64,000 bases of DNA, taken from positions 1 through 64,000 of the forward strand of contig JAJQCD010000004.1 of NCBI GenBank assembly GCA_021202925.1, given 5' to 3'. Under the pieces are notes generated by a model, which was not told the DNA's origin, did not search any database, and was given only the letters and a program-made list of their open reading frames with translations. The stretch comes from Clostridiales bacterium (GTDB lineage Bacteria; Bacillota; Clostridia; Lachnospirales; Lachnospiraceae). How positions within the stretch are numbered: position 1 is the first letter of the stretch; every line of letters starts with the position of its first letter. The position numbers and the translations under genes were made by a program. This document shows, piece after piece, positions 1 through 17,995 of this stretch.

Positions 1-30
1 GCGGAAGATGGTGATCTGGACGAGTTTTAG
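1..30 (+). CDS. C-terminal end of an upstream gene (partial)
   Basis: Frame 1 is open from the window edge to a TAG at 28-30 and encodes only AEDGDLDEF. An acidic tail followed 34 bp later by a ribosome binding site (GAGGAA, 51-56) and the next start is what the end of an operon neighbour would look like. Too little is visible to name it, and it could be a chance open frame. Confidence 0.25.
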   Translation, partial: AEDGDLDEF

Positions 31-64
31 TCGGAAAATTTCTGGAAAATGAGGAAATGATTGC

Positions 65-2140
65 ATGGCAAAGAACTGGGAATACGGATTTGCCATAGAG
101 CATCATGTACCTATTCTTCCGATCACTGTGGAATCTGGATTGGAGGAATATTTTGCTGTTGAAATGAACCGGATCTGTGATGGGTATGGGGATATCCAGC
201 TTCTCAGGATGGAAGTGACAGATCGAACAGAGATACCTTATTATCAGAAACTGGGTAGGGATCTCGGAGCAATTCTTTTGGAGAATAAAGAGATTGAACG
301 GATCAAACAGGCCTTCAGTGGGAAGATATTTTTGAGCTACCGAAAAAAAGAAAGGATATATGCTAATGAGCTGATGCACACAATACACAGTATTCCATCA
401 CTCAGGAATGTTTCCATCTGGTTTGATGAGTTTATGTCTTCGGGTGAAAGATGGAGTGATCAGATAGACGACGCTTTAAAGCAGAGTGACGTGTTCCTTC
501 TGATGGTTTCTCCTTCTATTACAGAACCAGATAATTATATAATCAGAGAGGAATATCCCGCGGCGTTAAAACAGGATAAGAAGATAGTTTCAGTCGAAAA
601 AAGTGAAAATAAATCAGAGATTCCCGATATTGAAGAGTTAAGGCAGCTATTTCCGGGGCTTAGTGTATTTGTGGATGGTGATGATACGGACGGACTGGAG
701 AACATGCTTCAGGAGATTTCGTCTGCAGCAGAATTAACTCCGGAGACGGATTATCTGATTGGACTTGCTTTTTTAAATGGTATTGAGATGGAACACGATA
801 CGGAAAGAGCAGTGTCATTGATCGTTGCTTCGGCACGTCAGAATTTTCCGGAAGCTATCAGAAAGCTGGCGGAGATGTACTGGAAAGGTGACGGTATCGG
901 AGTTAACTATGAAAATTCGATTCTCTGGAGAAAAAGGCTGGTTGAACTTTATGAACATAAGGTTGACGAGATAAAAGAGCCAGAAGAAACGCTGAAATAT
1001 ATCAGAGCACTTGAGGGGCTTGCAACAAGCCTTTATGAGCTGAGTTCTTTTCGAGAATCACTATTGTATGCAAAACAGTTGGTGAAGCTGATGGAACAGA
1101 TCGCTTCCTTTTCGGATTATCGCTCTCTGGCATATGATCTTTGTGGTAAGAATTGTAAGAGGCTGGGCCTGTATGATGATGCGATTGCTTATGCGGACAA
1201 GTTTCGTGAACTTGCTGAAGAGCAGTATAAACGAGATCCTTCGACTAATAATCGGCATAATATTTCTGTTGCCTGTGAGCGTGTTGGAGATGCGTATTAT
1301 GCTATTGGTGATTTTGAACAGACTGAAAGCTGGTATCTCAAGGCTATAGAGATAGACCGTAGAATTGATGAAGAATTGAAATCTATAGATTCGGCGTTTA
1401 CCTTGTCTGTCAGTACGCTGATGCTTGGAGATATCTATATCAGGCACGGTGAGTATGAGAAAGCTGAGCAGATATACGACGAAGCAGTTCAACTAAGAAA
1501 AAGAATTCTTGAAGCTGAAAATACAGATGATCATCGAAAACAGTACGGAGAAGTGTTACTTGTAAGAGGAACTGCTCTACTGCTTAAGCGGGAAACTGAT
1601 GAAGCGAGAAAAAACTTTTCGGAGGCAAAAGAAATCTTCAGAAATCTGGCGGAAAAGCACGGAACGATAGAAATTCAGTACTCTTATTCGATATCGTTGA
1701 ACCGATGTGGGAGAATATGCGAAGAAAAGCGTGATTTTGCATCGGCTCGTGAGTGTTACATAGAAAGCCTGGAAATCCGTAGAAAAATCCTGAAAAAGCA
1801 TAGAAGTATGGAAACGCTTTATGAATATGCGCTTGTTCTGCTTTTTAAAGCAAGGGCAAGTCAACATGTATATGATTGGATCAGTGCAAAAGCTGATTAT
1901 GAAGAAATCGTAGAGAAGCTACGGCCTGTTCTGGCAAAGGATCGTAAAGGAGATTGTCATCGTATCTTTACGGAAGCAGCATTTGAGCGGTTTAAGATAG
2001 ATACCTACTCTGGAAAGCACTATCTGCAGTATGCAATAGATGGATGGAAATGGTTGCTTGACCGAAGCCCTTCAAATCGTGGTTATCAGAAACAATATGA
2101 TCTTTGCCAGAAGATGTATTGGAGGTGCTATTCGGATTAA
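65..2140 (+). CDS. TIR-domain/TPR protein, N-terminally short
   Basis: A 691-residue protein. Residues about 8-75 match the second half of the first TIR-like domain of the gene at 8051 (FAIEHHVPILP here, FAVEHHIPVLP there). A full TIR domain follows at about 86-190: FLSYRKK opening strand, WFDE, then a helix with EE at 162-163, the position of the catalytic glutamate in NAD-cleaving TIRs. Sel1-like repeats (about 230-290) and TPR-like helical repeats fill the rest. TIR domains cleave NAD+ or scaffold signalling, and TPRs bind partners. About 95 residues present in the paralogue are missing: the frame is closed upstream by a TGA at 50-52, and the ATG at 65 has a GAGGAA site 8 nt before it. The gene at 2165 follows after 24 bp and is probably cotranscribed. 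Defence or signalling is inference. Confidence 0.75.
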   Translation: MAKNWEYGFAIEHHVPILPITVESGLEEYFAVEMNRICDGYGDIQLLRMEVTDRTEIPYYQKLGRDLGAILLENKEIERIKQAFSGKIFLSYRKKERIYANELMHTIHSIPSLRNVSIWFDEFMSSGERWSDQIDDALKQSDVFLLMVSPSITEPDNYIIREEYPAALKQDKKIVSVEKSENKSEIPDIEELRQLFPGLSVFVDGDDTDGLENMLQEISSAAELTPETDYLIGLAFLNGIEMEHDTERAVSLIVASARQNFPEAIRKLAEMYWKGDGIGVNYENSILWRKRLVELYEHKVDEIKEPEETLKYIRALEGLATSLYELSSFRESLLYAKQLVKLMEQIASFSDYRSLAYDLCGKNCKRLGLYDDAIAYADKFRELAEEQYKRDPSTNNRHNISVACERVGDAYYAIGDFEQTESWYLKAIEIDRRIDEELKSIDSAFTLSVSTLMLGDIYIRHGEYEKAEQIYDEAVQLRKRILEAENTDDHRKQYGEVLLVRGTALLLKRETDEARKNFSEAKEIFRNLAEKHGTIEIQYSYSISLNRCGRICEEKRDFASARECYIESLEIRRKILKKHRSMETLYEYALVLLFKARASQHVYDWISAKADYEEIVEKLRPVLAKDRKGDCHRIFTEAAFERFKIDTYSGKHYLQYAIDGWKWLLDRSPSNRGYQKQYDLCQKMYWRCYSD

Positions 2141-2164
2141 ACATTTACGAAGGGGGAGAGAAAA

Positions 2165-3547
2165 ATGGCAGATATATGTATGGTACCAATTCCAAAGATG
2201 GATGTCCTGATGGAGGATTTTACTAATATTGAGACACTGATTGATAATATCGCTTCTGACAGGGAGAAGTTGCTTGAAATGAGAAATAGTTGGGCAGTAT
2301 TTTTTCTGGGCTATGATGATGATCCGCGCGAAATTCCTGATATTCCTGAAGTGGTGAATTGGATTAAGAAGTCTATGGAAGCTGGTATACCTTGGTTCTA
2401 TTTTATGAGAGCGACACAGGACAATTTGGGACTTGTTACGTTTATGATCTGTTGCGGTTCAGATCATGATTCTGATCATCCGGGACGGTATATTTTTGAA
2501 AAAGAAAGGATGCTTGCATTTATCAAAAAGAATCTGAGTAATCTGGCTGACTTTGTAGAGAAACATAATATTCCGGACGAGGTGAGATGTGCAGTTACAG
2601 ATGATATCATGGGCGTGGTTCAGAGCGTATTGCAGGGATCAATGGATCAGAAAAATCCTTCTGAAAACATGGATAGAGCAAAACAGATCAAGGAGGCGAT
2701 GTTACGTCTTACCACGTTGGAGAATATTTATGGGATTAATCCCAATATTAAGAAATATTTTGGTGAGGGAAAATTGTACTACTCCTATATTACCGGGGGA
2801 TTTTTGGGTAGTATAGATACGATCGATTATGATAAAAGGTATGTAAAAGTTGTTAAGGATTTCGAAGAGCGAACCGCCTATCTGGTTTATCATGTGATTG
2901 AATGTGGAAATACAATTTCTTTGTTGTACGTTAGTGATGATTATAATCATTGGCTAGAGGAAAGGCCAACTTCATCCGGTGTCATGGCACAGGTTGTAAA
3001 TATGGATACCCATGAAAACGAGATGGGATTTATCCGAGTAGATATAATTCAGGGAGCATTGTACAGAAGCAATGATACAGTGTATTCCTCCATGCCTGGA
3101 AAAGATGCTGACAAAAGGGAACTTTCCTGTATAGATATGGAGGTTGTTGAACGGCTGGAGATTCTGAAAAATTCCAGTATTATGTCGGATCTCGATATCG
3201 CACAGACATATATCCGGGAAGGCGAAATCTGCGGCAGCCTGTTGAGATCTGTCCTTGGGACGCCGGTAGGCGTGGTCAATCGTGTATCTTCCAGCTCTAA
3301 AAATAAGCAGCTATTGGAAATGCTGCAGGCACAAGTGCCGATGAAACTTTATTTCATGATGGACTCCACCGGGAATAAGGTGGCTTTTCTGTCAGTGTCT
3401 GAAGATGAGAGCGAATGGGAATACGAAAAGCTGGCACTGGAGAAGGGAAGAGCGTTTGCGGTCGTAGTTGATCCGGATGAAAGGACTGCGACGCTTAAAC
3501 AGATTAGTTTCGTGATGATAAATGGTGGACCGATATTTGTAGATTGA
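2165..3547 (+). CDS. Uncharacterised 460-residue cytoplasmic protein
   Basis: Starts with ATG after a GGGGGAGAG site, 24 bp behind the TIR/TPR gene, so the two are likely one transcript. The protein has no signal peptide and no obvious membrane helix. It looks like an alpha/beta protein with an acidic first 100 residues and a helical middle (about 140-190), then beta-rich stretches. No catalytic motif that I recognise is present. Its position suggests a partner of the TIR/TPR protein, which is inference from context only. Confidence 0.7.
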   Translation: MADICMVPIPKMDVLMEDFTNIETLIDNIASDREKLLEMRNSWAVFFLGYDDDPREIPDIPEVVNWIKKSMEAGIPWFYFMRATQDNLGLVTFMICCGSDHDSDHPGRYIFEKERMLAFIKKNLSNLADFVEKHNIPDEVRCAVTDDIMGVVQSVLQGSMDQKNPSENMDRAKQIKEAMLRLTTLENIYGINPNIKKYFGEGKLYYSYITGGFLGSIDTIDYDKRYVKVVKDFEERTAYLVYHVIECGNTISLLYVSDDYNHWLEERPTSSGVMAQVVNMDTHENEMGFIRVDIIQGALYRSNDTVYSSMPGKDADKRELSCIDMEVVERLEILKNSSIMSDLDIAQTYIREGEICGSLLRSVLGTPVGVVNRVSSSSKNKQLLEMLQAQVPMKLYFMMDSTGNKVAFLSVSEDESEWEYEKLALEKGRAFAVVVDPDERTATLKQISFVMINGGPIFVD

Positions 3548-3727
3548 TTGTATCTTCTGGCGATGAATGTTTTTGGCCTGATGGAATTTGATCAGGACAA
3601 ATGCCGTGACCCGTTTGGAGTTATTGACGGACGGGATGGACGTTAGTCCACAACCATTTTCTGGAATATATAGCAAGGTGCAGGCGAAAGACTGAAAGGA
3701 ATTCAACCGATAATCGAATATAATCGC

Positions 3728-3770
3728 GAAAGACCCGAAGGAGAGACAATTTCTCTTCCGGGTCTTTCTT
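3728..3770 (+). terminator. Rho-independent-like terminator after the TIR/TPR operon
   Basis: GAAAGACCCG (3728-3737) pairs perfectly with CGGGTCTTTC (3759-3768). An inner GAGA/TCTC pairing and a short loop lie between, and TT follows. It lies 180 bp after the stop of the 460-residue gene and directly before the C-run promoter. Confidence 0.6.
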
Positions 3771-3775
3771 AAGTT

Positions 3776-3812
3776 CCCCCCTTTTAAAAAGGATTCCGTT
3801 ATGATGTACAAT
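3776..3812 (+). promoter_or_regulatory. C-run promoter, copy A
   Basis: Six C (3776-3781), 25 nt, then a TACAAT -10 box (3807-3812) preceded by TATGATG. There is no TTGACA-like -35 hexamer in the usual place. The same layout occurs at 4958, 10080 and 10409. It precedes the small gene at 3936 and the membrane protein at 4160. The C run lies around -43 to -38, where an activator would bind; that role is inference. Confidence 0.55.
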
Positions 3813-3935
3813 AATAATGTAAAGAGTTATATGAGATCTGCCAATGAACTGTTACCTGATGTTCCTTCTGTATTTTAGTCAAAGGACATACAAAGGAAAG
3901 TTGGTGACGGGCATAGTAAGAGGAGTGATATTCAA

Positions 3936-4091
3936 ATGAATGAAAAAGAAATAACGAAAGATTTAATAAGGGCATTGATGTTTTTTGGAATAGTCAGAGG
4001 GTGGAAAATATCGAAATTGATAGATGAATATGAGCGTCTGGGAATACCTAAAGAATTGGTAAATGATACTTTAAATGAGGGATGTGAGTAA
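3936..4091 (+). CDS. Small 51-residue helical protein
   Basis: The ATG at 3936 has an AGAGGAG site about 10 nt upstream and the frame ends with TAA at 4089-4091. The product starts MNEKEITKDLIRALMFFGIV and continues with charged helical sequence (RGWKISKLIDEYERLGIP). It has no Cys motif and no signal peptide; one short hydrophobic patch (ALMFFGIV) could be a helix face. It is the first gene after C-run promoter A, 69 bp before the membrane protein at 4160. Function unknown. It may be a regulator, a peptide partner or an immunity factor. Confidence 0.5.
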   Translation: MNEKEITKDLIRALMFFGIVRGWKISKLIDEYERLGIPKELVNDTLNEGCE

Positions 4092-4159
4092 ACATATTTC
4101 TTGTCCAGCTATTGGAAGATCTATCTTAGATAAATTTTTTAGAGGATGGTAGTGACGGT

Positions 4160-4915
4160 ATGGGTGATATATGGTTTGTTTTGATATTTTTGGCAGTATT
4201 TGTTATTGATGCAAATCCGTGGATCATTGGAGTTGTGATTATGTGCATTTTTGGTTTTATAATCTATGCCTGTTTGATTAATCAAAATAAGAGCGAAGTA
4301 AATACTGACATAATTCAGAGAGGGGAAAAGAAACTGAAAAAAGCCGATGTTCAAAATGATCCCATGATTGATGAAGTTATTCAGTTTTTAGATTCATTTG
4401 CTGAATATGATAAATATCGGAGAAATTCGAAGTCAGAACCAGAGGAGAAATTAGTTTATTATACAGTAAAAGAAGACGGTTCGTTCCGATCGTTGCTTTT
4501 AAAAAAATCATTGTCGGAAACAGTAACAATAGATTTTAGGATTAATAATGGTTCTCTTAGCGTTCGTTTTAGTATTGATGGATATGTCAATATTTTTAAC
4601 GAATTTTGTAATACGATTGGCCAATCATCGTACATCATAGATAAAGCCTTAGGCATGATTTGGTGGAATTCGGATGCTAAGGTGAAAAAATTTTGGTGTG
4701 ATGCAGAAATGGAGACATGGTATGTTAATTCAGATGACGGAGCCGTTAGCGTGTGCCTTAATGGATTAGTAAAAACATTTTGTCTTCAATATAAAAATGG
4801 TGATGAAGCATATATTGAAACTATTTTAGATAGAGCAAAAAGAAATTTTCCAACAATTTGTGTTGAAAAAGATAAAAAAGGCTCTGGCGGGAAATTATAT
4901 TTTCCTGTTACATAA
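4160..4915 (+). CDS. Membrane-anchored protein with FVIDANPWII segment (copy 1)
   Basis: A 251-residue protein. Residues about 3-37 form one or two hydrophobic helices around the motif FVIDANPWII, followed by a soluble, charged domain without a recognisable fold. The gene at 6568 shares this N-terminal segment, including 28 identical bases (4197-4224 and 6605-6632), but the downstream domains do not align by eye. The two copies flank the radical SAM/peptide pair. The start has only a weak upstream site. Conserved anchor plus variable tail resembles immunity or toxin-variant families, but no such activity can be read from the sequence. Confidence 0.65.
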   Translation: MGDIWFVLIFLAVFVIDANPWIIGVVIMCIFGFIIYACLINQNKSEVNTDIIQRGEKKLKKADVQNDPMIDEVIQFLDSFAEYDKYRRNSKSEPEEKLVYYTVKEDGSFRSLLLKKSLSETVTIDFRINNGSLSVRFSIDGYVNIFNEFCNTIGQSSYIIDKALGMIWWNSDAKVKKFWCDAEMETWYVNSDDGAVSVCLNGLVKTFCLQYKNGDEAYIETILDRAKRNFPTICVEKDKKGSGGKLYFPVT

Positions 4916-4957
4916 AGCGCTTTTATTAATGAGACCAGGATCAATCAACATTATCAT

Positions 4958-4994
4958 CCCCCCTTCATGCGAGTAAATATCGATATGCTATATT
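4958..4994 (+). promoter_or_regulatory. C-run promoter, copy C, before the radical SAM gene
   Basis: Six C (4958-4963), 25 nt, then TATATT (4989-4994) with an extended TGC in front (TATGCTATATT). It is closely related to 10080-10119: both read ATATCG, TATGCTATA, then TTGTAAA-like sequence. It lies 50 bp upstream of the radical SAM start at 5044, which has its own AAAGGAG site. Confidence 0.55.
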
Positions 4995-5043
4995 TACCAA
5001 TGTAAAGAATAAATGTATCACAAAATCAAAGGAGAAAAAGCCA

Positions 5044-6156
5044 ATGAGTAATACGGTTAAAAAAACAGATAAGGATACTGTAGAGATTCTTTTGGTAATG
5101 ACAGAAAGCTGCAACCTCAAATGTCGATATTGTTATGAAAAAAATAAGTCAGCGAAAAGAATGGAATTGGATATTGCAAAACGCATTATAGATCATGAAT
5201 TTGAAATCGCGCAGGGTACAGATATTAAGCTTGTGGTTCAGTTCTTTGGTGGTGAACCAACGCTCGAATTTGATCAGATCCGTAAAATTTACGATTATAT
5301 TCACGAAAAAAACTCTCCAAACTATGAATATTGCTTTGTGGTAACAAACGGGACAGCATTGAAAGACAATGACAAGGAGTGGTGCAGAGAACATCGGGAG
5401 GATTTCATCTGTGGGTTGAGCCTGGATGGAACAAAAGAAGTCCAGGATTATAACAGAAGCAATTCTTATGACCTGATAGATTTTCCGTTTTTTCGTGATA
5501 CCTGGCCGAATCAGAAAGTGAAGATGACGGTATCACCGGATATGCTTCATAAGCTGGCGGAATGTGTTATCCACTGCCACGAACTTGGTTTTGATGTGCT
5601 TTGCAATCTTGCTGATGGTGTGGGCTGGGAGGAAAGCAGTTCCGGTATCCTTGAGACGGAATGTAAAAAATTGATTGAGTATTATCTTCTACATCCGGAA
5701 AAAGAACCTTGCACCATGCTGAAGATGCCGCTTCTGCACGTTGGTTTGACTGATCACACGGTGTTTCCAAAATGGTGCGGAGCCGGAGATCATATTCATG
5801 CATATGATACAGACGGAACTTGTTATCCATGCCAGATGTTTATGGGGATCACGGAGGAGAATCTGGAAAACCCTCTGTTGCAGAGTGCTTATAAGGCCGA
5901 ATTATTACCCGAAGGTTGTCAGGATTGTGTTTTATACGGGTGCTGCCCAACTTGTATCGGTACAAACATGGTAAGAAGATGCACGCCCTTTTATCATACG
6001 GCAACGGAATGTAAGAATATAAAAATTCAGTTCCTTGCTACTTCGTATTTGATGTATGAAAAATACAAGCAAGGCCAATTGAATCTTTCGGATGTCGAGA
6101 CGAATCTGTTGCTGAGAAATATCTATACAGTACAAAACGCTTTTGCGGATCTGTGA
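5044..6156 (+). CDS. Radical SAM/SPASM peptide maturase
   Basis: A 370-residue enzyme. The CX3CX2C cluster that binds the SAM-cleaving [4Fe-4S] centre is C23, C27, C30, and the GGEP motif is at 69-72. The C-terminal SPASM-type region has C245, C260, C263, C292, C295, C300, C301, C304, C313 and C323, enough for auxiliary clusters. This build is typical of enzymes that install thioether or carbon-carbon crosslinks in ribosomal peptides. A short Cys-rich ORF follows 62 bp downstream and is the obvious substrate. It resembles the Cys-rich-peptide maturases of clostridia, but I cannot assign the exact subfamily. No RRE domain, transporter or protease gene lies beside it, so export and leader removal are unexplained. 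Confidence 0.85.
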   Translation: MSNTVKKTDKDTVEILLVMTESCNLKCRYCYEKNKSAKRMELDIAKRIIDHEFEIAQGTDIKLVVQFFGGEPTLEFDQIRKIYDYIHEKNSPNYEYCFVVTNGTALKDNDKEWCREHREDFICGLSLDGTKEVQDYNRSNSYDLIDFPFFRDTWPNQKVKMTVSPDMLHKLAECVIHCHELGFDVLCNLADGVGWEESSSGILETECKKLIEYYLLHPEKEPCTMLKMPLLHVGLTDHTVFPKWCGAGDHIHAYDTDGTCYPCQMFMGITEENLENPLLQSAYKAELLPEGCQDCVLYGCCPTCIGTNMVRRCTPFYHTATECKNIKIQFLATSYLMYEKYKQGQLNLSDVETNLLLRNIYTVQNAFADL

Positions 6157-6218
6157 CAAAGCTTTGTCGCCTGATTGGTAATAGCGATTTGATAATCAAT
6201 GGGAAGGAGGAAAAACAT

Positions 6219-6371
6219 ATGCTCAAACTGACTTTTGAAGAGTTAACCGGCTTGTCCGTTTATCTGGACACATTACCGGTGATCACATCGTCTATGCTGG
6301 AAGGATTTGCCTGCTCTGCCAGTGATAATAGTTGTGGATGTGGATGGGATTGTTCGAGTACAAAAACCTGA
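6219..6371 (+). CDS. Cys-rich RiPP precursor peptide, 50 residues
   Basis: The ATG at 6219 sits 8 nt behind a strong GGAAGGAGG site (6202-6210). An upstream in-frame start at 6153 lacks such a site. The leader is amphipathic (LKLTFEELTGLSVYLDTLP) and the C-terminal core is GFACSASDNSCGCGWDCSS. It holds four Cys, one CX3D spacing (CSASD) and one CX2D (CGWD), plus many Ser, Asp and Gly acceptors. CX3D/E spacing is used in some ranthipeptides, where Cys sulfur is joined to the beta carbon of Asp or Glu. Sactipeptide-type alpha crosslinks are the alternative. The partner is the radical SAM enzyme 62 bp upstream. Crosslink type and activity are inference. Confidence 0.75.
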   Translation: MLKLTFEELTGLSVYLDTLPVITSSMLEGFACSASDNSCGCGWDCSSTKT

Positions 6372-6470
6372 ACCTGAGAGTAAAAACTAGCAACTTGAGC
6401 TTGAGATGGTGTATAGGGGAAGGAAACAAATATTTGTGAGATTTCCGCATACGAAGCCATCAAAGAAAAT

Positions 6471-6520
6471 GCATCCCTGACTAAAAAGAGATATGCGTCA
6501 GGGATGCAATCCCTGAGTGT
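6471..6520 (+). terminator. Terminator after the RiPP precursor
   Basis: GCATCCCTGAC (6471-6481) and GTCAGGGATGC (6497-6507) form a perfect 11-bp stem with a 15-nt loop. A T-rich stretch follows from about 6518. A second CCCTGA copy just after the stem could give an alternative pairing. It closes the radical SAM/peptide unit before the second FVIDANPWII gene. Confidence 0.6.
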
Positions 6521-6567
6521 TTTCTTATTTTTGCAGGAAGGCTTTTTGTTAGGCTGATAATAAAGGT

Positions 6568-7257
6568 ATGAATGGTATGTGGCTTATTTTAATATTATTT
6601 GTAATATTTGTTATTGATGCAAATCCGTGGATTATAAGCACGGGCTTTGGAATTTTGATTCTATTTATTTGTGGAATAATAATTAAAGGATTGATACGAC
6701 AGGACGAAACCGAGCAGTTTTGTTCAAGCCAGGATTGTGTTAAATTACAAAAGCTTTTTGAAAACTGCAATTATGTAAACAAAGATTTCCGGATACTGCA
6801 AATTCACTTTTGTTCCGGAGATGTAAAGGGATTTATTAATTACTCGATTCGTTTTCAGGATTTAGGGAAACGGGTAATCATTCCATGGAGAGATAGCCTG
6901 GAATGGGTTGATAAGAAAGCAGGAATGGATTATCAATCATCTTATAATACAAGGCTTGGAATACAAAAGGGGGCAGATACGGAGTTTTATAAAAAATTAT
7001 TTCAAGAGAATTCATTAATGCCTGAAAATTTGGTAATTCGTTCGCCATTTGAATTTTATGCAAGTTCGGGAGGAAAGTGTGTTGTTGATGCGGATCGTTG
7101 GAAGGTAGATGAAGACGATGCGATTTATATGGATATCTTAGAATTTCGTAGTGACAAAAATGACGCTATTCTTTGCGCAATTGAAAATACTGCCAGAAAA
7201 ATGCTTTCCGGTGTTAGAATATCAAGATTTTCGAATAACTGTTATATCAACTTTTGA
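6568..7257 (+). CDS. Membrane-anchored protein with FVIDANPWII segment (copy 2)
   Basis: A 229-residue protein. Residues about 4-42 are hydrophobic and contain VIFVIDANPWII, as in the gene at 4160. The remaining domain (about 50-229) is charged, has several Cys, and ends RFSNNCYINF. It does not align with copy 1 by eye. It lies just downstream of the RiPP terminator and has no C-run promoter of its own that I can see. The final codons overlap an 18-bp sequence repeated at 10046-10063. Function unknown; a membrane partner or self-protection factor for the peptide is one possibility. Confidence 0.65.
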   Translation: MNGMWLILILFVIFVIDANPWIISTGFGILILFICGIIIKGLIRQDETEQFCSSQDCVKLQKLFENCNYVNKDFRILQIHFCSGDVKGFINYSIRFQDLGKRVIIPWRDSLEWVDKKAGMDYQSSYNTRLGIQKGADTEFYKKLFQENSLMPENLVIRSPFEFYASSGGKCVVDADRWKVDEDDAIYMDILEFRSDKNDAILCAIENTARKMLSGVRISRFSNNCYINF

Positions 7258-7356
7258 TTTGACGCGCTACTGTTTATTTGTGTTAATTGGATGTCCGGAT
7301 AGACAGCAGAGAATAATGACTTATATAGAAATTTTATGGTACAATGAAACAAATTG

Positions 7357-7385
7357 TTGACAGCTTTTTCATTAAAATATATTTA
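7357..7385 (+). promoter_or_regulatory. Standard promoter for the gene at 7442
   Basis: TTGACA (7357-7362), 17 nt, TATTTA (7380-7385). The -35 is a perfect match to the housekeeping consensus and the spacing is ideal. It contrasts with the C-run promoters around it, so the 7442 and 8051 genes may be expressed independently of the C-run units. Confidence 0.6.
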
Positions 7386-7441
7386 TAGGCCATGAAGATA
7401 ATAGAAATCAAGAGCAGATGTATCATTACAAGGAGGAAGAC

Positions 7442-7996
7442 ATGTATAAGGTGATTAAAAATAAAGGCAACATGATAAATGCGTATCAGCTGGGAAGCGG
7501 CAATCCGGTTATCAAAGCGCTGATGGACGATGGCAAAATCAAAGATATTGGAAGCGGCAGATATGAAATCTATTCTCAGGAAGCGATTAATGGTGCTGTC
7601 GGTGGCGAGATGGCTGAGGCCGGTGACTGGATTAAGGTGGATTCCAGGGAATGTCCATATCCAAATAACAGAGAATATTTTGAAGCGAATCACAGACATA
7701 TAGAGGGGGATATCTTCGAGCAGATTCCGAAAACTCTGTCAGCGTGGGATGCGAAACTTGCGATGTGTCCGGAGATCGCATTCTTGATAGAGAATAAGGG
7801 GCTGATCATTGATAAGACTTCTTCTGATCGACGATATATTGCAAAACTTTGGGGAACGACGGAAGCAGCGGCAGAAGATGCGATGATCGTATTTTACAGC
7901 ATTTTTTATGATGAGGCAGGGAATGTAACAGACTGTGATTATAATTTTGTTAAGAGAGAGGAATTTGACCGAACATACAGCATAATAATCGGATGA
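7442..7996 (+). CDS. Uncharacterised 184-residue protein beside the TIR gene
   Basis: The ATG at 7442 follows an AAGGAGGAAGAC site, better than any start further upstream. The product opens MYKVIKNKGNMINAYQLG and looks globular and acidic, without a signal peptide, membrane helix or Cys motif. I do not recognise a domain. It ends 54 bp before the TIR-TIR-TPR gene and shares its strand and probably its standard promoter. An accessory role to the TIR protein is inference from context only. Confidence 0.65.
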   Translation: MYKVIKNKGNMINAYQLGSGNPVIKALMDDGKIKDIGSGRYEIYSQEAINGAVGGEMAEAGDWIKVDSRECPYPNNREYFEANHRHIEGDIFEQIPKTLSAWDAKLAMCPEIAFLIENKGLIIDKTSSDRRYIAKLWGTTEAAAEDAMIVFYSIFYDEAGNVTDCDYNFVKREEFDRTYSIIIG

Positions 7997-8050
7997 TCGA
8001 ACTGAGGGGCTTTATGAGTATTTGGATCATAATAACGGGAGAGATATGCC

Positions 8051-9898
8051 ATGGAAAAATCATTAGCTTGCAAAACAAGAGGAAACAGCAGCCCGCAGGG
8101 AAAGGAGCGTATATTCTTTACCTGCCATCCGGAAGATTTCAGCAACTATTTTGAGCCTATCTGTGAAGAAATCTTTAAGACTCAGAACTGTGCGGTCTGG
8201 TATGATGAAAAGCCAGAGATTGCATGGAATCCGGAAGAGATGGATACGGAACTTGGCCGGATGCAGTTATTTGTGATTCCAATTACAAGCAGGTTCCTCT
8301 ATAAAGAAAACAGCGCACGGGAAGTTCTTTTCCGTTTTGCTGTGGAACATCACATCCCTGTTCTGCCATTGATGCAGGAGCGTGGCCTTGAGGAGGGCTT
8401 TAACCGTATCTGCGGTGATTTGCAGTTCTTGGATAAAAATGCAGCAAGATCGGATCCGACGGCACTGCCTTATGATCAGAAGCTGGAGCGTTTCCTCGCT
8501 TCCGTACTTTTGGGCGATGAACTGGCTGAGAAAGTACGGAAGGCGTTTGATGCGTACATTTTTTTAAGCTATCGGAAAAAAGATCGGACATATGCGCAGG
8601 AACTGATGCGTCTAATTCATCAGAATGATTTTTGCCGTGATATCGCGATCTGGTATGATGAGTTCCTTGTGCCCGGCGAGAACTTTAACCATGCCATCCA
8701 GGACGCTATGGAGAAAAGTGAACTTTTTACATTTGTGGTGACGCCGAACCTGCTGGAACCGGATAATTACGTAATGAAAGAAGAATATCCTGCTGCAAAG
8801 GAAAACGGGAAACCGATCCTGCCGGCGGAGATGGCGATCACTGACCGCCAGGCACTTCTGGAAAGCTATAGTGAGATTCCGGAGCCGGTGGATGCTCATA
8901 ACGCTCCGGTACTTTCCAAAGCTTTGATGCAAGGGCTTTGCAATCTGGCGATTGCGGAGCGTAACGATGAATCCGAACATCTTTTTTTCATTGGGCTGGC
9001 ATATTTGAGCGGAATTGATGTTGAAGAAAACCGGGAACAGGGGGTACAGTTGATTACGACAGCAGCAGAAAGAGAACTCCCGGAGGCGATGGAAAAACTT
9101 AGCCAGATGTACAAGTCTGGTGAAGGTGTTGAGCGGGATAATGAAGCGTCGGTACAATGGCTGGAAAAGCTGGCTGATTATTGGGAGAAAAAGTTTGCAG
9201 AGAGTGGAAGACAGGAAGATGAGGAAAGATGGTGGTTAGCTCTTGCAAATTTAGGAGTAATGTGGCATGTAATGGACAAATTGGAGCCTGAGGCACATGT
9301 TTATAATAGATTATTAGATGTATCAGAGCGCATGTTGGAACAATTTCCAAGTACATACCACAAACATTTATTGAGCATTAGCTATAGGAATATGGGATAT
9401 ATCTGTAATGCAGAAAGGAACTTCGGAGGAGCCAGAACTTGGTATGAGAAAGCATTGGAGATCTGCGAAGGGGCGGAGACGTCTCGGTGGAACCTGAGCG
9501 CCGTTTATATTGATCTGGGGGATATCTGTAATGCAGAAGGGAATTTCGGAGGAGCCAGAATTTGGTATGAGAAAACATTAGAGATCCGCGAAAAATTGGG
9601 TAGGGAGATGGGAACTGAGGAGTCGTGGTGGAATCTGAGCGCTATCTATGTAAGAATGGGAAATGTCTGTAAAGTAGAAAGGAACTTAGGTGGAGCCAGA
9701 GTCTGGTATGAGAAGGATGTGGAGATTTGCGAAAAATTGAGCAGGGAAACGGGGGCGGAGGCATCGCGGTGGAATCTGAGTGCCAGCTATACAAGGATGG
9801 GAAATATCTGTGAAGCAGAAGGTAATCCAGAAGAAGCAAGTGCTTGGTATGAGAAGGCTATGGAGATCGACGCAAAATTAAGTTCTGGATTAAATTAA
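8051..9898 (+). CDS. Tandem TIR/Sel1/TPR protein
   Basis: A 615-residue protein. A first TIR-like domain lies at about 18-125 (IFFTCHPEDF, WYDE). A second, better conserved TIR domain lies at about 167-260, with YIFLSYRKK, IWYDEF and YVMKEEYPAA; the EE there is the likely catalytic position. Sel1-like repeats cover about 310-375 and TPR units continue to the end. The last four TPR units are near copies at DNA level. TIR enzymes act on NAD+ in bacterial immunity, while TPRs sense partners. The order (sensor repeats C-terminal, effector N-terminal) fits a ligand-triggered effector, but activation and target are unknown. It is the full-length paralogue of the gene at 65. Confidence 0.78.
   Translation: MEKSLACKTRGNSSPQGKERIFFTCHPEDFSNYFEPICEEIFKTQNCAVWYDEKPEIAWNPEEMDTELGRMQLFVIPITSRFLYKENSAREVLFRFAVEHHIPVLPLMQERGLEEGFNRICGDLQFLDKNAARSDPTALPYDQKLERFLASVLLGDELAEKVRKAFDAYIFLSYRKKDRTYAQELMRLIHQNDFCRDIAIWYDEFLVPGENFNHAIQDAMEKSELFTFVVTPNLLEPDNYVMKEEYPAAKENGKPILPAEMAITDRQALLESYSEIPEPVDAHNAPVLSKALMQGLCNLAIAERNDESEHLFFIGLAYLSGIDVEENREQGVQLITTAAERELPEAMEKLSQMYKSGEGVERDNEASVQWLEKLADYWEKKFAESGRQEDEERWWLALANLGVMWHVMDKLEPEAHVYNRLLDVSERMLEQFPSTYHKHLLSISYRNMGYICNAERNFGGARTWYEKALEICEGAETSRWNLSAVYIDLGDICNAEGNFGGARIWYEKTLEIREKLGREMGTEESWWNLSAIYVRMGNVCKVERNLGGARVWYEKDVEICEKLSRETGAEASRWNLSASYTRMGNICEAEGNPEEASAWYEKAMEIDAKLSSGLN
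9401..9870 (+). repeat. DNA-level tandem TPR units
   Basis: Four related units begin at about 9401, 9524, 9665 and 9806, giving steps of 123, 141 and 141 bp (41 and 47 residues). Each carries an ATCTGTAATGCAGAA-like block, GGAGCCAGA, TGGTATGAGAA and GAGATCTGCGAA, followed by a GGTGGAATCTGAGC-like block. The first unit lacks seven residues present in the next two. Such similarity at DNA level indicates recent expansion and a site where repeat number may vary. Confidence 0.75.
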
Positions 9899-10176
9899 GC
9901 TTGACATAATGGTATTACATAATGCAAGAAAAAATGGCATCTATTATCCGAACAATATACAAAAATCAGAATTGTATGTTTTGTATTTATGGTTGTATTG
10001 TAGTATGAGCGACCAGACAGTAAAATCAACCGCCGGAATCGGGACTTTCGAATAACTGTTATACGAGCTGGTTTTATATCCCCCCCCTCTGTCAGGAGAG
10101 AATATCGCTATGCTATACTTGCATTGTAAAAGATATCCAGTATTTTTTCCAATATCATTTCAAGGAGGTGTATATT
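9899..10176 (+). other. Intergenic stretch with gene remnant and C-run promoter
   Basis: About 280 bp without a convincing gene. It contains an 18-bp copy (10046-10063) of the last codons of the gene at 6568; in one frame it reads LSNNCYTSW, compared with FSNNCYINF there. This suggests a decayed third member of that family or a recombination junction. C-run promoter D follows directly at 10080. Confidence 0.4.
10080..10119 (+). promoter_or_regulatory. C-run promoter, copy D
   Basis: Eight C (10080-10087), 26 nt, then TATACT (10114-10119) with an extended TGC (TATGCTATACT). It is the closest relative of the promoter at 4958. It drives the 38-residue zinc-ribbon gene at 10177, which has a strong AAGGAGGTG site. 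Confidence 0.55.
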
Positions 10177-10293
10177 ATGAAGCGTGTGCTTTGCCCGTGC
10201 TGTGGATTCCTTGCGCGTAAGTGTTGCTCTGAGGATGGAAAACGATGGAGGTATATATGTGAGCGCTGTGGGACTATCTTTTCCGTTGATTGA
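10177..10293 (+). CDS. 38-residue zinc-ribbon miniprotein
   Basis: The ATG at 10177 lies 7 nt after AAGGAGGTG and the frame ends with TGA at 10291-10293. The protein begins MKRVLCPCCGFLARKCC and ends ERCGTIFSVD. The pairs CPCCG and CERCG form a classic zinc ribbon, with two extra Cys (KCC). Such very small ribbons can bind nucleic acid or serve as structural partners. It sits alone between C-run promoter D and module B. The strong ribosome binding site and clean promoter support it as a real gene; function is unknown. Confidence 0.65.
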   Translation: MKRVLCPCCGFLARKCCSEDGKRWRYICERCGTIFSVD

Positions 10294-10358
10294 ATGGATC
10301 GGAGCTGCCGTATGACTGAAGGGAATTCAGTCGCTAACCGAACATAATTGCCTTGCCG

Positions 10359-10404
10359 GAAGTCCCGGAGGAGTGACAACAATCTCTCTTCCGGGACTTT
10401 CTTA
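10359..10404 (+). terminator. Terminator after the 38-residue gene
   Basis: AAGTCCCGG (10360-10368) pairs with CCGGGACTT (10391-10399), and the stem is followed by TTCTTATG. It corresponds to the terminator at 3728 in module A and separates the zinc-ribbon gene from the next C-run promoter. Confidence 0.55.
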
Positions 10405-10408
10405 TGTT

Positions 10409-10445
10409 CCCCCCTTTAAAGAGGGATTTCCTTATGATGTATAAT
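10409..10445 (+). promoter_or_regulatory. C-run promoter, copy B
   Basis: Six C (10409-10414), 25 nt, then a perfect TATAAT (10440-10445) preceded by TATGATG. No -35 hexamer is recognisable in the interval. It precedes two miniprotein genes (10492, 10661) and possibly the VirD4-like gene at 10853, since no terminator is visible between them. Confidence 0.6.
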
Positions 10446-10491
10446 GATAACAACAGAAAAACAAATAACACACTATCGATGAAAGAGGGAA

Positions 10492-10647
10492 ATGGCAATG
10501 CGGCATTTGCTTTTAATTATAATCTGCATAAAGCTCTTTTTTATCCAATGCAGGATTTTACATCTGGCATGTAAAATCCTATCAGAAGTGATAGGTATGT
10601 TTTTGTTCCTGCTGTTAGTATTTATAATCGCTAAAATATTTTTCTAA
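10492..10647 (+). CDS. 51-residue small membrane protein
   Basis: The ATG at 10492 follows AAAGAGGG and the frame ends with TAA at 10645-10647. Two hydrophobic segments are visible, LLLIIICIKLFFI near the N-terminus and GMFLFLLLVFIIAKIFF at the end, joined by a short basic, Cys-containing linker. It is almost certainly membrane-embedded. The next gene starts 13 bp downstream, so the two are cotranscribed from C-run promoter B. Function unknown. Small hydrophobic proteins in defence islands are sometimes toxins or membrane effectors, which is speculation here. Confidence 0.5.
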   Translation: MAMRHLLLIIICIKLFFIQCRILHLACKILSEVIGMFLFLLLVFIIAKIFF

Positions 10648-10660
10648 GGAGGAGATGCAG

Positions 10661-10798
10661 ATGAAACGAATAACCAGAATGAGATTTAAGAGCCAGATGT
10701 TCGAATGCTCGCAGTGTGGGTATTATATACCGATGCTTGTAAGATGGGATACCGCCACCTGCCCAAGATGTGGAGGAACGATGTATCGGAACAGTTAG
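10661..10798 (+). CDS. 45-residue zinc-ribbon miniprotein
   Basis: The ATG at 10661 lies 8 nt after TAAGGAGGAG. The protein has CSQCG and CPRCGG pairs separated by about 15 residues, a compact zinc ribbon, after a basic N-terminus (MKRITRMRFK). It follows the 51-residue membrane gene by 13 bp and precedes the VirD4-like gene by 54 bp. It resembles the miniprotein at 10177 in type (MKR start, two CxxC pairs) but differs in sequence. Nucleic-acid binding is plausible, unproven. Confidence 0.65.
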   Translation: MKRITRMRFKSQMFECSQCGYYIPMLVRWDTATCPRCGGTMYRNS

Positions 10799-10852
10799 AT
10801 CAGATTGTTTACATACCGACCGAAAACAGGAAATATAGAAAGGACGAATCTT

Positions 10853-12337
10853 ATGAATAATGAATATTACAAGTCGGTTTTTGGCGATGATGGCAGCAAT
10901 GTTATGGTCGAAGGACCAGCGGAAAGTGAAAAAATGAAATCCCTGGTAATTCCATGGGTGAGTAGCAGGATCGACGCAAACGAGTCCTTTATATGCGTGG
11001 AAGGTTCAGACATAATTTTGCAGGACACCTTCCAGAAAGCGAAGGAAATGGGTTATAAGACGTTCATCCTGAACCTGAAAACTCCAAACAAATCATCCGA
11101 TCACTGGAATCCGCTTGGGGGCATGTTTCAGGCGTACCATTCCGGCGACGCCGGACAAAAGGACTGGGTGCTGGGTAATCTGCTGTGTATCGCGCAGGCG
11201 CTGATACCGTATGATGAAAACAGCCGTGACCTTTTTGTAGCGTGCGCGGAGGCACTTTTTATGTGCGCGGAGAAGGAAGACGAGATTACTTTGGGTAACA
11301 TATATCGCATGATTATGAATAGCGAGGAACGCATTGATTTTTCCGGTTCTGCGTTAGCGGAGTTCTTTCGGCTCATTGTGGGGCAGGAGGAAAACGCATA
11401 TTTGAAAGCGGCCAGTTTCCTCCTGTGCAGGGATACGGAAACCAGGAGCAGGATCCTTCTGGAAGTTATAAAGGCGCTTTCATTCCTCTTTACGGATCCG
11501 TCAACAAAAAATCTGTTCGCCCATAATGGTTTTGACATTTGGGATATAAAAGACACAGAAAAATGGGCAATCTATATTATTTTATCGGATGAGACGCGGA
11601 GATTTCATCATGTCGCCACAATGTTTATGAAACTCCTGCATCATCATCTGGTGAGAATTGCCGATCACAATGGAGGCAGCCTGAAAAAACGTTTCAACTT
11701 CATATGCTGTGAGTTTGCGGAGTACAAACTTCCGGATGTGGATATGATGCTGTTCGGTTCAGCCAGGAGAGATATCCGGTTTTTTCTGTCTTTTCAAAGC
11801 CACGAAAAACTTCTTCTACGATACGGACACGATGCTGCTATGGTTATGAAGAACAGTTGCCCGATCCAATACCGTTTCCCTTTCCCCAATAGCGTAACCA
11901 TTTGTAAAAGCGATGAGCTATCCGAAAGGGAGGATCAGGAAACTATGGCGCGTACATCCGTGCAGCTGCCGGAATTGAGTGAAGATGAGGATATGCCTGA
12001 TCCGGTTTATGACATCATTCAGGTCCTCGAAGAGAGGAAAAAAAGGAAGCGGAAGGAATGGGAAGAGAAGGAGGAAGAATTGCTGAAAGAGATAGAAGAA
12101 CAGGGAATCCGCATGGAGGAGGACGGCTCTGTCAGCCGGCTTATTTGCAGTAAAGAAAAGCTGGATGAGCTTAAATGTGAGGGCGAAGAACCTCCTACCG
12201 ACGAAGAGCTGGACGAGATGATGTCTTTGATTGAAGATATGGATTTATCAGACATGAAAGAGAAGCTCAGGGAAAATATAAAACGGATGGGAGATGCAGA
12301 TGGAGATAACAATAACACGGACAATTCTGATCAGTGA
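10853..12337 (+). CDS. VirD4/TraG-like protein lacking a normal Walker A motif
   Basis: About 494 residues from the ATG at 10853 (AAAGGA site); a TTG at 10805 is a weaker start. The layout follows VirD4/TraG coupling ATPases: NVMVEGPAESEKMKS at 17-30 replaces the nucleotide-binding loop, FICVEGSD stands where TDPKGE would be, then YKTFILNL and WNPLGG. FNFICCEFAEYK at about 281-292 replaces the hhhhDEFA Walker B, and FQSHEKLLLRYG stands where the LQS...Y segment lies. The loop lacks the second Gly and the Thr/Ser, and the Walker B Asp is Cys, so ATP hydrolysis is doubtful. No N-terminal membrane helices. The C-terminal 110 residues are a charged coiled coil. It overlaps the phosphatase gene by 44 bp. 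Likely a domesticated conjugation protein. Confidence 0.6.
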   Translation: MNNEYYKSVFGDDGSNVMVEGPAESEKMKSLVIPWVSSRIDANESFICVEGSDIILQDTFQKAKEMGYKTFILNLKTPNKSSDHWNPLGGMFQAYHSGDAGQKDWVLGNLLCIAQALIPYDENSRDLFVACAEALFMCAEKEDEITLGNIYRMIMNSEERIDFSGSALAEFFRLIVGQEENAYLKAASFLLCRDTETRSRILLEVIKALSFLFTDPSTKNLFAHNGFDIWDIKDTEKWAIYIILSDETRRFHHVATMFMKLLHHHLVRIADHNGGSLKKRFNFICCEFAEYKLPDVDMMLFGSARRDIRFFLSFQSHEKLLLRYGHDAAMVMKNSCPIQYRFPFPNSVTICKSDELSEREDQETMARTSVQLPELSEDEDMPDPVYDIIQVLEERKKRKRKEWEEKEEELLKEIEEQGIRMEEDGSVSRLICSKEKLDELKCEGEEPPTDEELDEMMSLIEDMDLSDMKEKLRENIKRMGDADGDNNNTDNSDQ

Positions 12338-13010
12338 CATACACGGGTGCTATAATGAACTGAGACGATTGCTTGAAAAAGTTCATTTTTCGACCCGGGA
12401 GGATAGGCTTATCCTCCTGGGAGATCTGTTTGACCGCGGGTCGGGGTCATTCGAGGTCTACTGCTTTGTAAAACGTTTAAAAGAGCAGATGAAAGAGAGA
12501 TGTATTCTCATCCGCGGCAATCATGAGGATATGTTTTTAAGAGCGGAGGAAGAAGAAAAGGCAAAACGAATGTGGCTCAGGAATGGCGGGATTGAGACGT
12601 GCGAGTCTTTTCGGCAGCATCAGGCAGATATCAACGAATGCGCATCATTTATCGAAAAAAACACGGTTTTGTATTATATTGACGACCGGTTCCAATGCGT
12701 TCATGCCGGTCTCGATTCGGAAAACCCTGAGAATAATGATCCGCATACGTTGCTCTGGAATGGCTATGTCACGGATAATTATTATGAGGGCAAGCTTACC
12801 ATGGTGGGGCATGTGCCGCTTTTAAATGAAGTGATTTACCTGAACGGCGACTCGGAAAATAATGTCAATCTTCCTCTGCATGAAATGATCAGGCTCCCAG
12901 AGACAGGCATGATTTTTCTTGATGGAGGATGCGTGTTCGGAGGCAGGCTGACAGCGATGGTGATAGGCGAGGGATGTTTTTATGTCGAAGCTGTTATGTA
13001 CGGAGAATAA
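12294..13010 (+). CDS. PPP-type metallophosphoesterase
   Basis: A 238-residue calcineurin-like phosphoesterase. The motifs are in order: SDIHG (14-18), GDLFDRG (43-49), GNHED (75-79), then VHAG and MVGH further on. This is the signature of the PrpA/Ser-Thr phosphatase and diadenosine tetraphosphatase group, which uses two metal ions. The substrate could be phosphoprotein or a dinucleotide. It overlaps the VirD4-like gene by 44 bp, implying translational coupling, and is followed by a 79-residue gene and a TatD-type hydrolase. Bases 12826-12869 inside it are duplicated at 14307-14350. Confidence 0.85.
   Translation: MQMEITITRTILISDIHGCYNELRRLLEKVHFSTREDRLILLGDLFDRGSGSFEVYCFVKRLKEQMKERCILIRGNHEDMFLRAEEEEKAKRMWLRNGGIETCESFRQHQADINECASFIEKNTVLYYIDDRFQCVHAGLDSENPENNDPHTLLWNGYVTDNYYEGKLTMVGHVPLLNEVIYLNGDSENNVNLPLHEMIRLPETGMIFLDGGCVFGGRLTAMVIGEGCFYVEAVMYGE
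12826..12869 (+). repeat. 44-bp direct repeat, copy inside the phosphatase gene
   Basis: Encodes NEVIYLNGDSENNVN of the phosphoesterase. It matches 14307-14350 with one mismatch in 44 bases (38 identical, one change, five identical). The copies are 1,481 bp apart in the same orientation and bracket the end of the phosphatase, the 79-residue gene and the TatD gene. Confidence 0.85.
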
Positions 13011-13087
13011 AAGCCGGATGTTAAAAGTGTGGCCGGAACAGGGAAAAATGTTGTTGAGCACAAAGAAATATAAGTGAGGTGTTCGGA

Positions 13088-13327
13088 ATGGAACCAAACA
13101 ATACTCTGTCCAGAGAGGTGCTGCTGGAATTGCCGGTTTCGATTAACAGCTACATCGTGTTGCGGGATTATATTATTCATCACGCAGACAGAGAGCTCTA
13201 CAAAAAATTTATACTACAATACAAAGAAGTTTGCCCTGGTTACGAGATGGCGAGAATTCTGGAACTGGTAAACTACATGTTTTATGGTGAAGATCCATAC
13301 GAGATCATCGGACTGGTTTTTACCTGA
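13088..13327 (+). CDS. Uncharacterised 79-residue protein
   Basis: The ATG at 13088 follows GTGAGGTG; another in-frame ATG at 13079 is too close to that site. The protein (MEPNNTLSREVLLELPVSIN...) is helical and acidic with no Cys motif and no signal peptide. It lies between the phosphatase and the TatD gene, 28 bp before the latter, inside the segment bracketed by the 44-bp repeat. I do not recognise it; it may be a small partner of TatD. Confidence 0.5.
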   Translation: MEPNNTLSREVLLELPVSINSYIVLRDYIIHHADRELYKKFILQYKEVCPGYEMARILELVNYMFYGEDPYEIIGLVFT

Positions 13328-13355
13328 AGGGGAGAGGTACTGAAGGAGACGAAAA

Positions 13356-14273
13356 ATGAAATTTATTGATTCCCATACGCATTTAGACCATAAACGGTTT
13401 GATGATAATCGCAATGCGATTATTGAGATGTCTCACGAAGCAGGCATTGAATATATGATTAATCCCGCGATTGATTTTAGCAGCAACTATACAATGAGAG
13501 AATGCCTGGATCCATACGAATTTATCAGGTATGGAGTGGGTATTCATCCAAATTATTTGGGGACAGACTGGATGACCGACGAAGAGAGGATGTCCGGTTT
13601 AACAGAACTGCTCATAAAAAATAAATCATCAAAAAGGATTGTTGCCATAGGAGAAACCGGACTTGATTATTACCGGCTGACTCGTGATAAAAACGGAGAG
13701 CCTGATGAAAACGGCCTCACAAAATTACGCAGACAACATTACTGGTTTCGTAAACACCTGTATTTAGCCTGCAGGACAAAACTTCCGCTTATTTTACACA
13801 TCAGAAATGCTGATATACAAATTGCCGGAGGTAAATGTCGATTAACAGAAGAAACAAAAACGGAATATGTGGATGCACATAAAGAGGCAATCAGAATCTT
13901 AAAAGAATTTGATAAGAAACTTCCTTCCAGAAAAAAGGGAGTAATTCATTGCTTTTCATCAAAAGACATAGAAGATGCGTTTACATACATTGATATGGGA
14001 TACATGCTCGGAATTGGCGGTGCGATTACTTATGAAGGACTGCCAGAATTAAAAGAAATCGTAAAACAGGTGCCGCTTCAAAATATCGTATTAGAAACCG
14101 ATTGTCCATATGTTTTTCCCACGGGAATGAATAGAGACATCGCCGGTAAGAGAAATACCCCTGTGAGTATTCCTTATATTGCACAGAAATTGGCCGAAGT
14201 TAAGGGTATCCGTCTGGAAGACGTGGCGCAAATTACAAGAGAAAATGCGTTGCAGCTTTTTCGATTGGATTAA
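13356..14273 (+). CDS. TatD-family metal-dependent hydrolase
   Basis: A 305-residue TIM-barrel amidohydrolase of the TatD type. Visible motifs are DSHTHLD near residue 5, GIHPNY, IGETGLDYY with the metal-binding Glu, HIRNAD (metal His), GVIHCFS, and LETDCPY near the end. TatD enzymes are metal-dependent deoxyribonucleases. The length is slightly above the usual 260, with an insert after HIRNAD. A TatD member is the nuclease of the Qat defence system, but no QueC-like or KAP-type partner is present, so this would be a different assembly with the phosphatase and VirD4-like protein. Confidence 0.85.
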   Translation: MKFIDSHTHLDHKRFDDNRNAIIEMSHEAGIEYMINPAIDFSSNYTMRECLDPYEFIRYGVGIHPNYLGTDWMTDEERMSGLTELLIKNKSSKRIVAIGETGLDYYRLTRDKNGEPDENGLTKLRRQHYWFRKHLYLACRTKLPLILHIRNADIQIAGGKCRLTEETKTEYVDAHKEAIRILKEFDKKLPSRKKGVIHCFSSKDIEDAFTYIDMGYMLGIGGAITYEGLPELKEIVKQVPLQNIVLETDCPYVFPTGMNRDIAGKRNTPVSIPYIAQKLAEVKGIRLEDVAQITRENALQLFRLD

Positions 14274-14306
14274 CGTCAAATGACGGTAAGGATAAATTAA
14301 GGCACT

Positions 14307-14350
14307 ATGAAGTGATTTACCTGAACGGCGACTCGGAAAATAATATCAAT
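14307..14350 (+). repeat. 44-bp direct repeat, copy after TatD
   Basis: Near-identical copy of 12826-12869 lying in non-coding sequence between tatD and the membrane protein gene at 14370. Here it encodes nothing intact, so it is the remnant: either the right part of an older phosphatase copy or a scar from insertion of the 79-residue/TatD segment. Confidence 0.85.
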
Positions 14351-14369
14351 GTTGAAATGGAGGCGTCAG

Positions 14370-16386: not shown

Positions 16387-16397
16387 GATGAAACGTG

Positions 16398-17768: not shown

Positions 17769-17995
17769 AATAGGTGTGGTTCTGATGCCTATGTAGAAAG
17801 CATCGCGGTCAAATTACGCGTCACGCCGGTAGACATAACAGTATGAGCACCCGGTACTTACTTTCGTGCCATGGATTCCAGATAGCCATTTTTCCGCCTC
17901 CCCTCGTTCTTTTAGTTGGTCAGATGTCTGTAAAGTGAATGGATAGAGAATTGTAATTCAAAGCAGGGAAGCAGACTATAGACATTGCTGTTTCC

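Follow-up and report, generated by a model that had tools for sequence, protein, structure and literature searches.

The window analysed here comprises the first 64,000 bases of an 80,444-bp contig (C23) from a 3.17 Mb genome of 39 contigs, and its left end is the contig end. Positions 1-18000 have a G+C content of 0.37-0.46 in blocks, against 0.47-0.56 for most of the rest, and encode TIR-TPR proteins, a radical SAM maturase with a Cys-rich peptide, small zinc-ribbon-like proteins and a coupling-protein-like gene. The island discussed in the following lies here and is a small, foreign-looking part of the genome. It carries four sites at which a run of C is followed at near-fixed distance by a -10-like box. 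Each of these putative promoters precedes an open reading frame, and two of them directly follow a strong hairpin. Further along the window, at 22721-22779, a pemK RNA (Rfam RF02913, 75.8 bits) was identified upstream of a gene (22944-23321) whose product, as we read its sequence, presumably resembles a PemK/MazF-type protein. The features of the island that are relevant here are the following.

65-2140: TIR-TPR protein
3677-3817, + strand: duplicated terminator-promoter segment, family A, copy 1
3728-3768, + strand: terminator-like hairpin just upstream of putative promoter 1 (-26.3 kcal/mol for 3715-3782, z -4.66)
3776-3781, + strand: C-run 1 (6 C), about -43 to -38 of the inferred start
3807-3812, + strand: -10 box TACAAT of putative promoter 1 (family A), 25 nt after C-run 1
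3936-4091, + strand: first gene after putative promoter 1, 51-aa protein with a predicted three-helix fold
4160-4915, + strand: second gene after putative promoter 1, 251-aa protein with a hydrophobic N-terminus and FVIDANPWII
4958-4963, + strand: C-run 2 (6 C)
4989-4994, + strand: extended -10 TGC-TATATT of putative promoter 2 (family B), 25 nt after C-run 2
5044-6156, + strand: radical SAM peptide maturase, best NCBIfam match to the PapB family with 120.6 bits, under its cut-off of 340
6219-6371, + strand: 50-aa Cys-rich peptide next to the maturase
8051-9898: TIR-TPR protein
10080-10087, + strand: C-run 3 (8 C), about -46 to -39 of the inferred start
10114-10119, + strand: extended -10 TGC-TATACT of putative promoter 3 (family B), 26 nt after C-run 3
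10177-10293, + strand: 38-aa zinc-ribbon-like protein after putative promoter 3, Pfam match below cut-off
10301-10450, + strand: duplicated terminator-promoter segment, family A, copy 2
10358-10401, + strand: terminator-like hairpin upstream of putative promoter 4 (-30.9 kcal/mol for 10350-10416, z -4.90)
10409-10414, + strand: C-run 4 (6 C)
10440-10445, + strand: -10 box TATAAT of putative promoter 4 (family A), 25 nt after C-run 4
10492-10647, + strand: 51-aa small protein with a hydrophobic stretch, after putative promoter 4
10655-10798, + strand: 47-aa zinc-ribbon-like protein, family matches below cut-offs

The predicted fold of the 51-aa protein (3936-4091) had no clear structural match, and the 251-aa FVIDANPWII protein had no Pfam family at E<=0.01. 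Relatives of the latter were present in none of the 298 other genomes searched from the bacterial family (1 of 299 being the genome itself, with two copies), and searches of 50,697 phage and 72,556 plasmid records were negative too. The two copies, 4160-4915 and 6568-7257, have a hydrophobic N-terminus with VIDANPWII in common (52% identity, query residues 2-46) and seem to differ in their C-terminal parts. Behind the second putative promoter, the 50-aa Cys-rich peptide is the probable substrate of the radical SAM maturase.

Exactly four runs of at least six C occur on the + strand of the window, all four intergenic and inside 6.7 kb, and each is followed by a -10-like box after 25, 25, 26 and 25 nt, respectively; all coordinates and spacings given in the original prediction were exact. 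A T flanks the C-run directly on both sides in every case, so that the element reads T-C6-8-T. All four -10 boxes match TATAAT at five or more of the six positions, and TGn stands directly before the box in two promoters (4958 and 10080), with ATG in its place at the other two. A good -35 hexamer at 15-19 nt spacing is absent from all four sites, the best matches being 4, 3, 4 and 4 of 6, as had likewise been predicted. The claim that no other run of six C exists in the 64 kb was correct for the + strand only, since the - strand has three more (32880-32885, 33561-33566 and 61120-61125), which lie within open reading frames. None of these three has TANNNT at 25-26 nt; the run at 32885 has TATACT at 22 nt. 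The promoter positions given here (-43 to -38 and so on) assume that transcription starts 7 nt after the -10 box, and we infer both this start and that the four sites are active promoters from the sequence.

Alignment indicates that the four sites are not independent and that they fall into two promoter families (A: 3776 and 10409; B: 4958 and 10080), a point missed when they were counted as four in the original prediction. Both sites of family A belong to a segment of 141/150 bp, with the preceding terminator included, that is present in two copies (3677-3817 and 10301-10450, 77% identity), and the hairpin pairing is conserved between these copies despite stem changes on both sides (GACCC/GGGTC versus GTCCC/GGGAC). 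In family B, 4951-5034 aligns with 10074-10167 from the C-run through the Shine-Dalgarno sequence with a score of 81 versus a shuffle maximum of 52, and none of 500 shuffles was as good. When one site of each family was compared (3776 with 4958), the alignment including the C-run beat all but one of 500 shuffles, whereas without the C-run it was marginal, with 37 of 500 shuffles as good; the two families possibly come from one common source. Their spacer sequences differ, yet the C-run and the 25-26 nt spacing are kept in both, and by this comparison the C-run and its spacing are what survived the divergence of the surrounding bases. Since there are only two families, the finding of four out of four carries less weight than it would for independent sites. 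Just upstream of the 10080 promoter, 18 bases (10046-10063, TTTCGAATAACTGTTATA) are identical to 7229-7246, where the second FVIDANPWII gene (6568-7257) has its 3' end. The place may once have held a third copy of this gene.

The combination of C-run and box is more frequent here than expected by chance. Six C followed by TANNNT at 25-26 nt was observed four times, compared with a mean of 0.013 and a maximum of 1 in 300 dinucleotide shuffles of positions 1-18000, and with a mean of 0.053 and again a maximum of 1 when the whole window was shuffled 300 times. A sample of the genome (20 stretches of 20 kb, the first overlapping the last 3,556 bases of the window including one - strand run) contained 17 runs of at least six C in 400 kb on both strands, three of which have TANNNT at 24-26 nt and one at 25-26 nt. 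With a model built from the four promoters (R1), the four sites scored 38.0-43.4 bits in the genome and the next place, on contig C19, scored 15.0 bits and is without a run of six C. We also used a motif model (R2) made from 24 artificial strings of C6, 25 nt and a -10 box with random spacers, in which TATG was placed in 18 of the 24 strings and the -10 variants were those of the reported finding; because it is modelled on the reported motif including these variants, it is informative only by where its matches fall. At E<=10, R2 gave three matches in the 3.17 Mb of the genome, all of them in the island; 150 of the 488 candidates from the first look were scored. R2 passed over the fourth site, 10080, presumably on account of its 26-nt spacing. 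Within the reach of these searches, the C-run motif characterises the island and not the genome. Such confinement fits one dedicated regulator, and this part of the original prediction, which had proposed one dedicated activator or alternative sigma factor, therefore gains from the result; the other part is taken up below. No regulator gene tied to the motif was found.

In other genomes we did not encounter a second island of this kind. R2 had matches with E<=0.1 in 18 of 397 genomes of the bacterial family including the genome itself, one match each, compared with about 40 genomes expected by rough E-values. This search was insensitive, with 16 candidates scored per genome and only one of the four known sites recovered, and related islands may therefore exist elsewhere. 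At the 17 other loci, six hold at least six C with TANNNT at 25-26 nt and three have no run of at least five C with a box. The six are single sites (L063, L064, L066, L068, L075 and L076); at least L064 and L067 have, by eye, a -35-like hexamer. The search in related genomes put forward in the original prediction gave no second island, a weak result in view of this sensitivity. Neither the 23 other genomes of the genus nor the 6 other TIR-TPR neighbourhoods held a second island with the motif. Within the genus (24 genomes, own included), R1 had 58 matches outside the genome itself, of which 28 gave loci, and none of these 28 has a run of six C nearby. The best of the R1 matches, at 20 bits, is an extended -10 promoter, TATGTTATACT, in G407 (L105), which lies directly after a hairpin, has no C-run and precedes a gene that we take from its sequence to be sugar-kinase-like. 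This suggests that TATGnTATA by itself is nothing unusual in the genus and that the peculiarity lies in the C-run. A BLAST search with the promoter-terminator segment found matches at E<=0.01 in 15 of 299 family genomes, own included, and none of the 14 other loci had an unbroken run of six C or G close to the matched part. For island DNA from 3600-7000 the other 23 genomes of the genus gave no match apart from 37 bases in G402, and for 3600-10900 plasmids and phages gave none. Viral contigs searched by promoter pattern gave no hit for family B; the three hits for family A were near-identical stretches, and in none of them does TANNNT stand at 25-26 nt.

A protein 60% identical to the radical SAM protein is encoded in genome G318; at E<=1e-25, 2 of 397 genomes of the bacterial family had a match, G318 and the genome of the island itself. 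The peptide encoded there (L083, 4292-4453) is identical to the island peptide (6219-6371) in its last 25 residues, MLEGFACSASDNSCGCGWDCSSTKT, while the leaders differ. No run of at least five C or G is present in the 239 bases upstream of the G318 radical SAM gene; in the 20 kb around it there are eight runs of at least five C, one of which (C5) has TAATCT at 25 nt. Since this related operon is without the C-run, the element would belong to the island and not to the radical SAM gene, and more generally the C-run seems not to be tied to a gene. In plasmids, relatives of the radical SAM protein were found in 90 records, all below 60% identity. A record titled Phocaeicola massiliensis plasmid 7 (L062) encodes two peptides, at 3062-3205 and 4694-4843, with a similar SCGCSGDCGSNW end, and these adjoin a 38% identical maturase. 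A pattern scan of genome contigs for the radical SAM protein gave three distant archaeal loci, and viral contigs gave no match. Relatives of the TIR-TPR protein 8051-9898 were identified in 6 other genomes among 250 family genomes searched. In the DNA around them, covered by 10 stretches (L092-L101) of which some stop at a contig end, no C6 has TANNNT at 25-26 nt; there is a C6 with TATTGT at 24 nt (L100), a C5 with TATCAT at 25 nt (L096) and a C5 with TACCTT at 26 nt (L093).

The motif, its near-fixed spacing, the missing -35 hexamer, the place before open reading frames, the confinement to the island as far as searched and the retention in both promoter families can all be read from the DNA itself. 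The best reading of them, to which we give an even chance, is that the sites are housekeeping-sigma promoters with a C-run that is read by a dedicated factor, probably an activator. According to this reading the four sites would be promoters of the housekeeping (RpoD-type) RNA polymerase, and T-C6-8-T at about -43 to -38 (-46 to -39 at 10080) would stand in for the -35 hexamer. A sequence-specific factor, encoded in the island or in an unseen neighbouring place, would bind the C-run, recruit or position the polymerase and so activate transcription. The small-protein, radical-SAM peptide and zinc-ribbon units would thereby be turned on together. In that case the C-run would be the mark of a regulon private to a single genomic island, and it could lead to the regulator by which, beside TIR-TPR genes, a radical-SAM peptide, small membrane proteins and zinc ribbons are connected.

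The main rival is that one or two ancestral extended -10 promoters were copied in the island together with their genes, that they are essentially constitutive and that the C-run was inherited and has no dedicated reader. The duplications described above speak for it, both the 77% identity of 3677-3817 and 10301-10450 and the homology of 4958 and 10080 from C-run to Shine-Dalgarno. So does the TGn plus -10 in two of the four sites, as extended -10 promoters can function without activator or -35 (PMC4390567). However, the C-run is intact in all four sites while adjacent spacer bases diverged, the 25-26 nt spacing held in both families, and runs of six C are rare otherwise, at the density given above for the 400 kb sampled. 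We regard this explanation as rather unlikely. Should the tract only be inherited by duplication, the case would still show how a cassette of terminator and promoter is copied to places upstream of new genes. A more specific form of the favoured reading would combine copying with control: a private factor might read the bare C tract, by its sequence or by an A-like DNA shape and with no inverted arms, as a substitute -35, and a copied promoter cassette would have wired newly arrived cassettes (small membrane proteins, the radical-SAM peptide, zinc ribbons) into one regulon. In this full form we think it improbable.

The C-run might instead be the operator for a G/C-tract repressor of the CsoR/RcnR/FrmR type, with the four units off until a signal arrives. 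The tract lengths of 6, 6, 8 and 6 lie in the range of three to eight described for type 1 operators in PMC3902906, and a location beside an extended -10 promoter suits repression. Against this, the tract of such operators lies between AT-rich inverted repeats, and around the C-runs these are not beyond chance, as 114, 291, 500 and 353 of 500 shuffled flanks reached the symmetry of the real ones; moreover, the regulated genes are unlike a metal or formaldehyde response. We judge a repressor of this type to be quite doubtful.

The sigma factors of the genome bear on a further possibility, namely that an alternative sigma reads the C-run as its -35. TIGR02937 had 14 matches in the genome, six of them above cut-off, and from their sequences we take these six to be two RpoD proteins and the sporulation types E, F, G and K only. 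The C-terminal recognition segment is nearly the same in both RpoD proteins. Among the six, no candidate for a sigma factor with a C-run -35 was recognised (the eight matches below cut-off were only glanced at), nor was a SigI-like protein with this family model. Together with the -10 boxes, which are of housekeeping type, this makes an alternative sigma very unlikely, and the corresponding half of the original prediction was not upheld. The C-run does recall the ACCCCC read by sigma-I, as given in PMC4711584, but none of the four C-runs is followed by CGAA within 45 nt. We would thus assign the sites to the housekeeping sigma factor. Equally improbable is a slippage-prone, phase-variable switch in which the tract length sets promoter output: the length does differ among sites (6, 6, 8, 6), but six-base tracts are short for slippage and the distance from the tract end to the -10 box stays at 25-26 nt at any tract length.

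Among known systems, one of the two closest in architecture is the middle promoter Pm of phage Mu, where, according to PMC4390567, a 16-bp Mor element centred at -43.5 replaces the -35. Like Pm as described there, the island sites would use a housekeeping sigma, and in their sequence they combine a recognisable -10 with the lack of a -35 and with a G/C element near -43 in its place; counted from the inferred start, the C-run lies at about -43 to -38. Mor, the activator of Pm, recognises 5-bp inverted repeats on either side of a G/C-rich hexanucleotide in the middle of its element (PMC4390567), whereas inverted arms around the C-runs are not beyond chance. The other is the type 1 operator of the CsoR/RcnR family, with which the sites share an uninterrupted single tract, made up in these operators of three to eight G/C bases (PMC3902906); they differ by lacking AT-rich inverted arms better than those of shuffled flanks. 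The regulators of that family respond to metals, persulfide or formaldehyde (PMC5016687). Sigma-I promoters also have a C-rich upstream element, the Bacillales consensus being ACCCCC--AA, 15 nt, CGAA----T (PMC4711584), and differ from the island sites in the CGAA motif. The ordinary extended -10 promoter of the genus in G407 also follows a hairpin but is without a C-run. If a dedicated factor does read the C-run, the island sites would have, where other promoters have a -35, nothing but a homopolymer tract that lacks inverted arms, which would set them apart from the Mor and CsoR sites compared here; the sigma-I element ACCCCC would be the nearest in letters.
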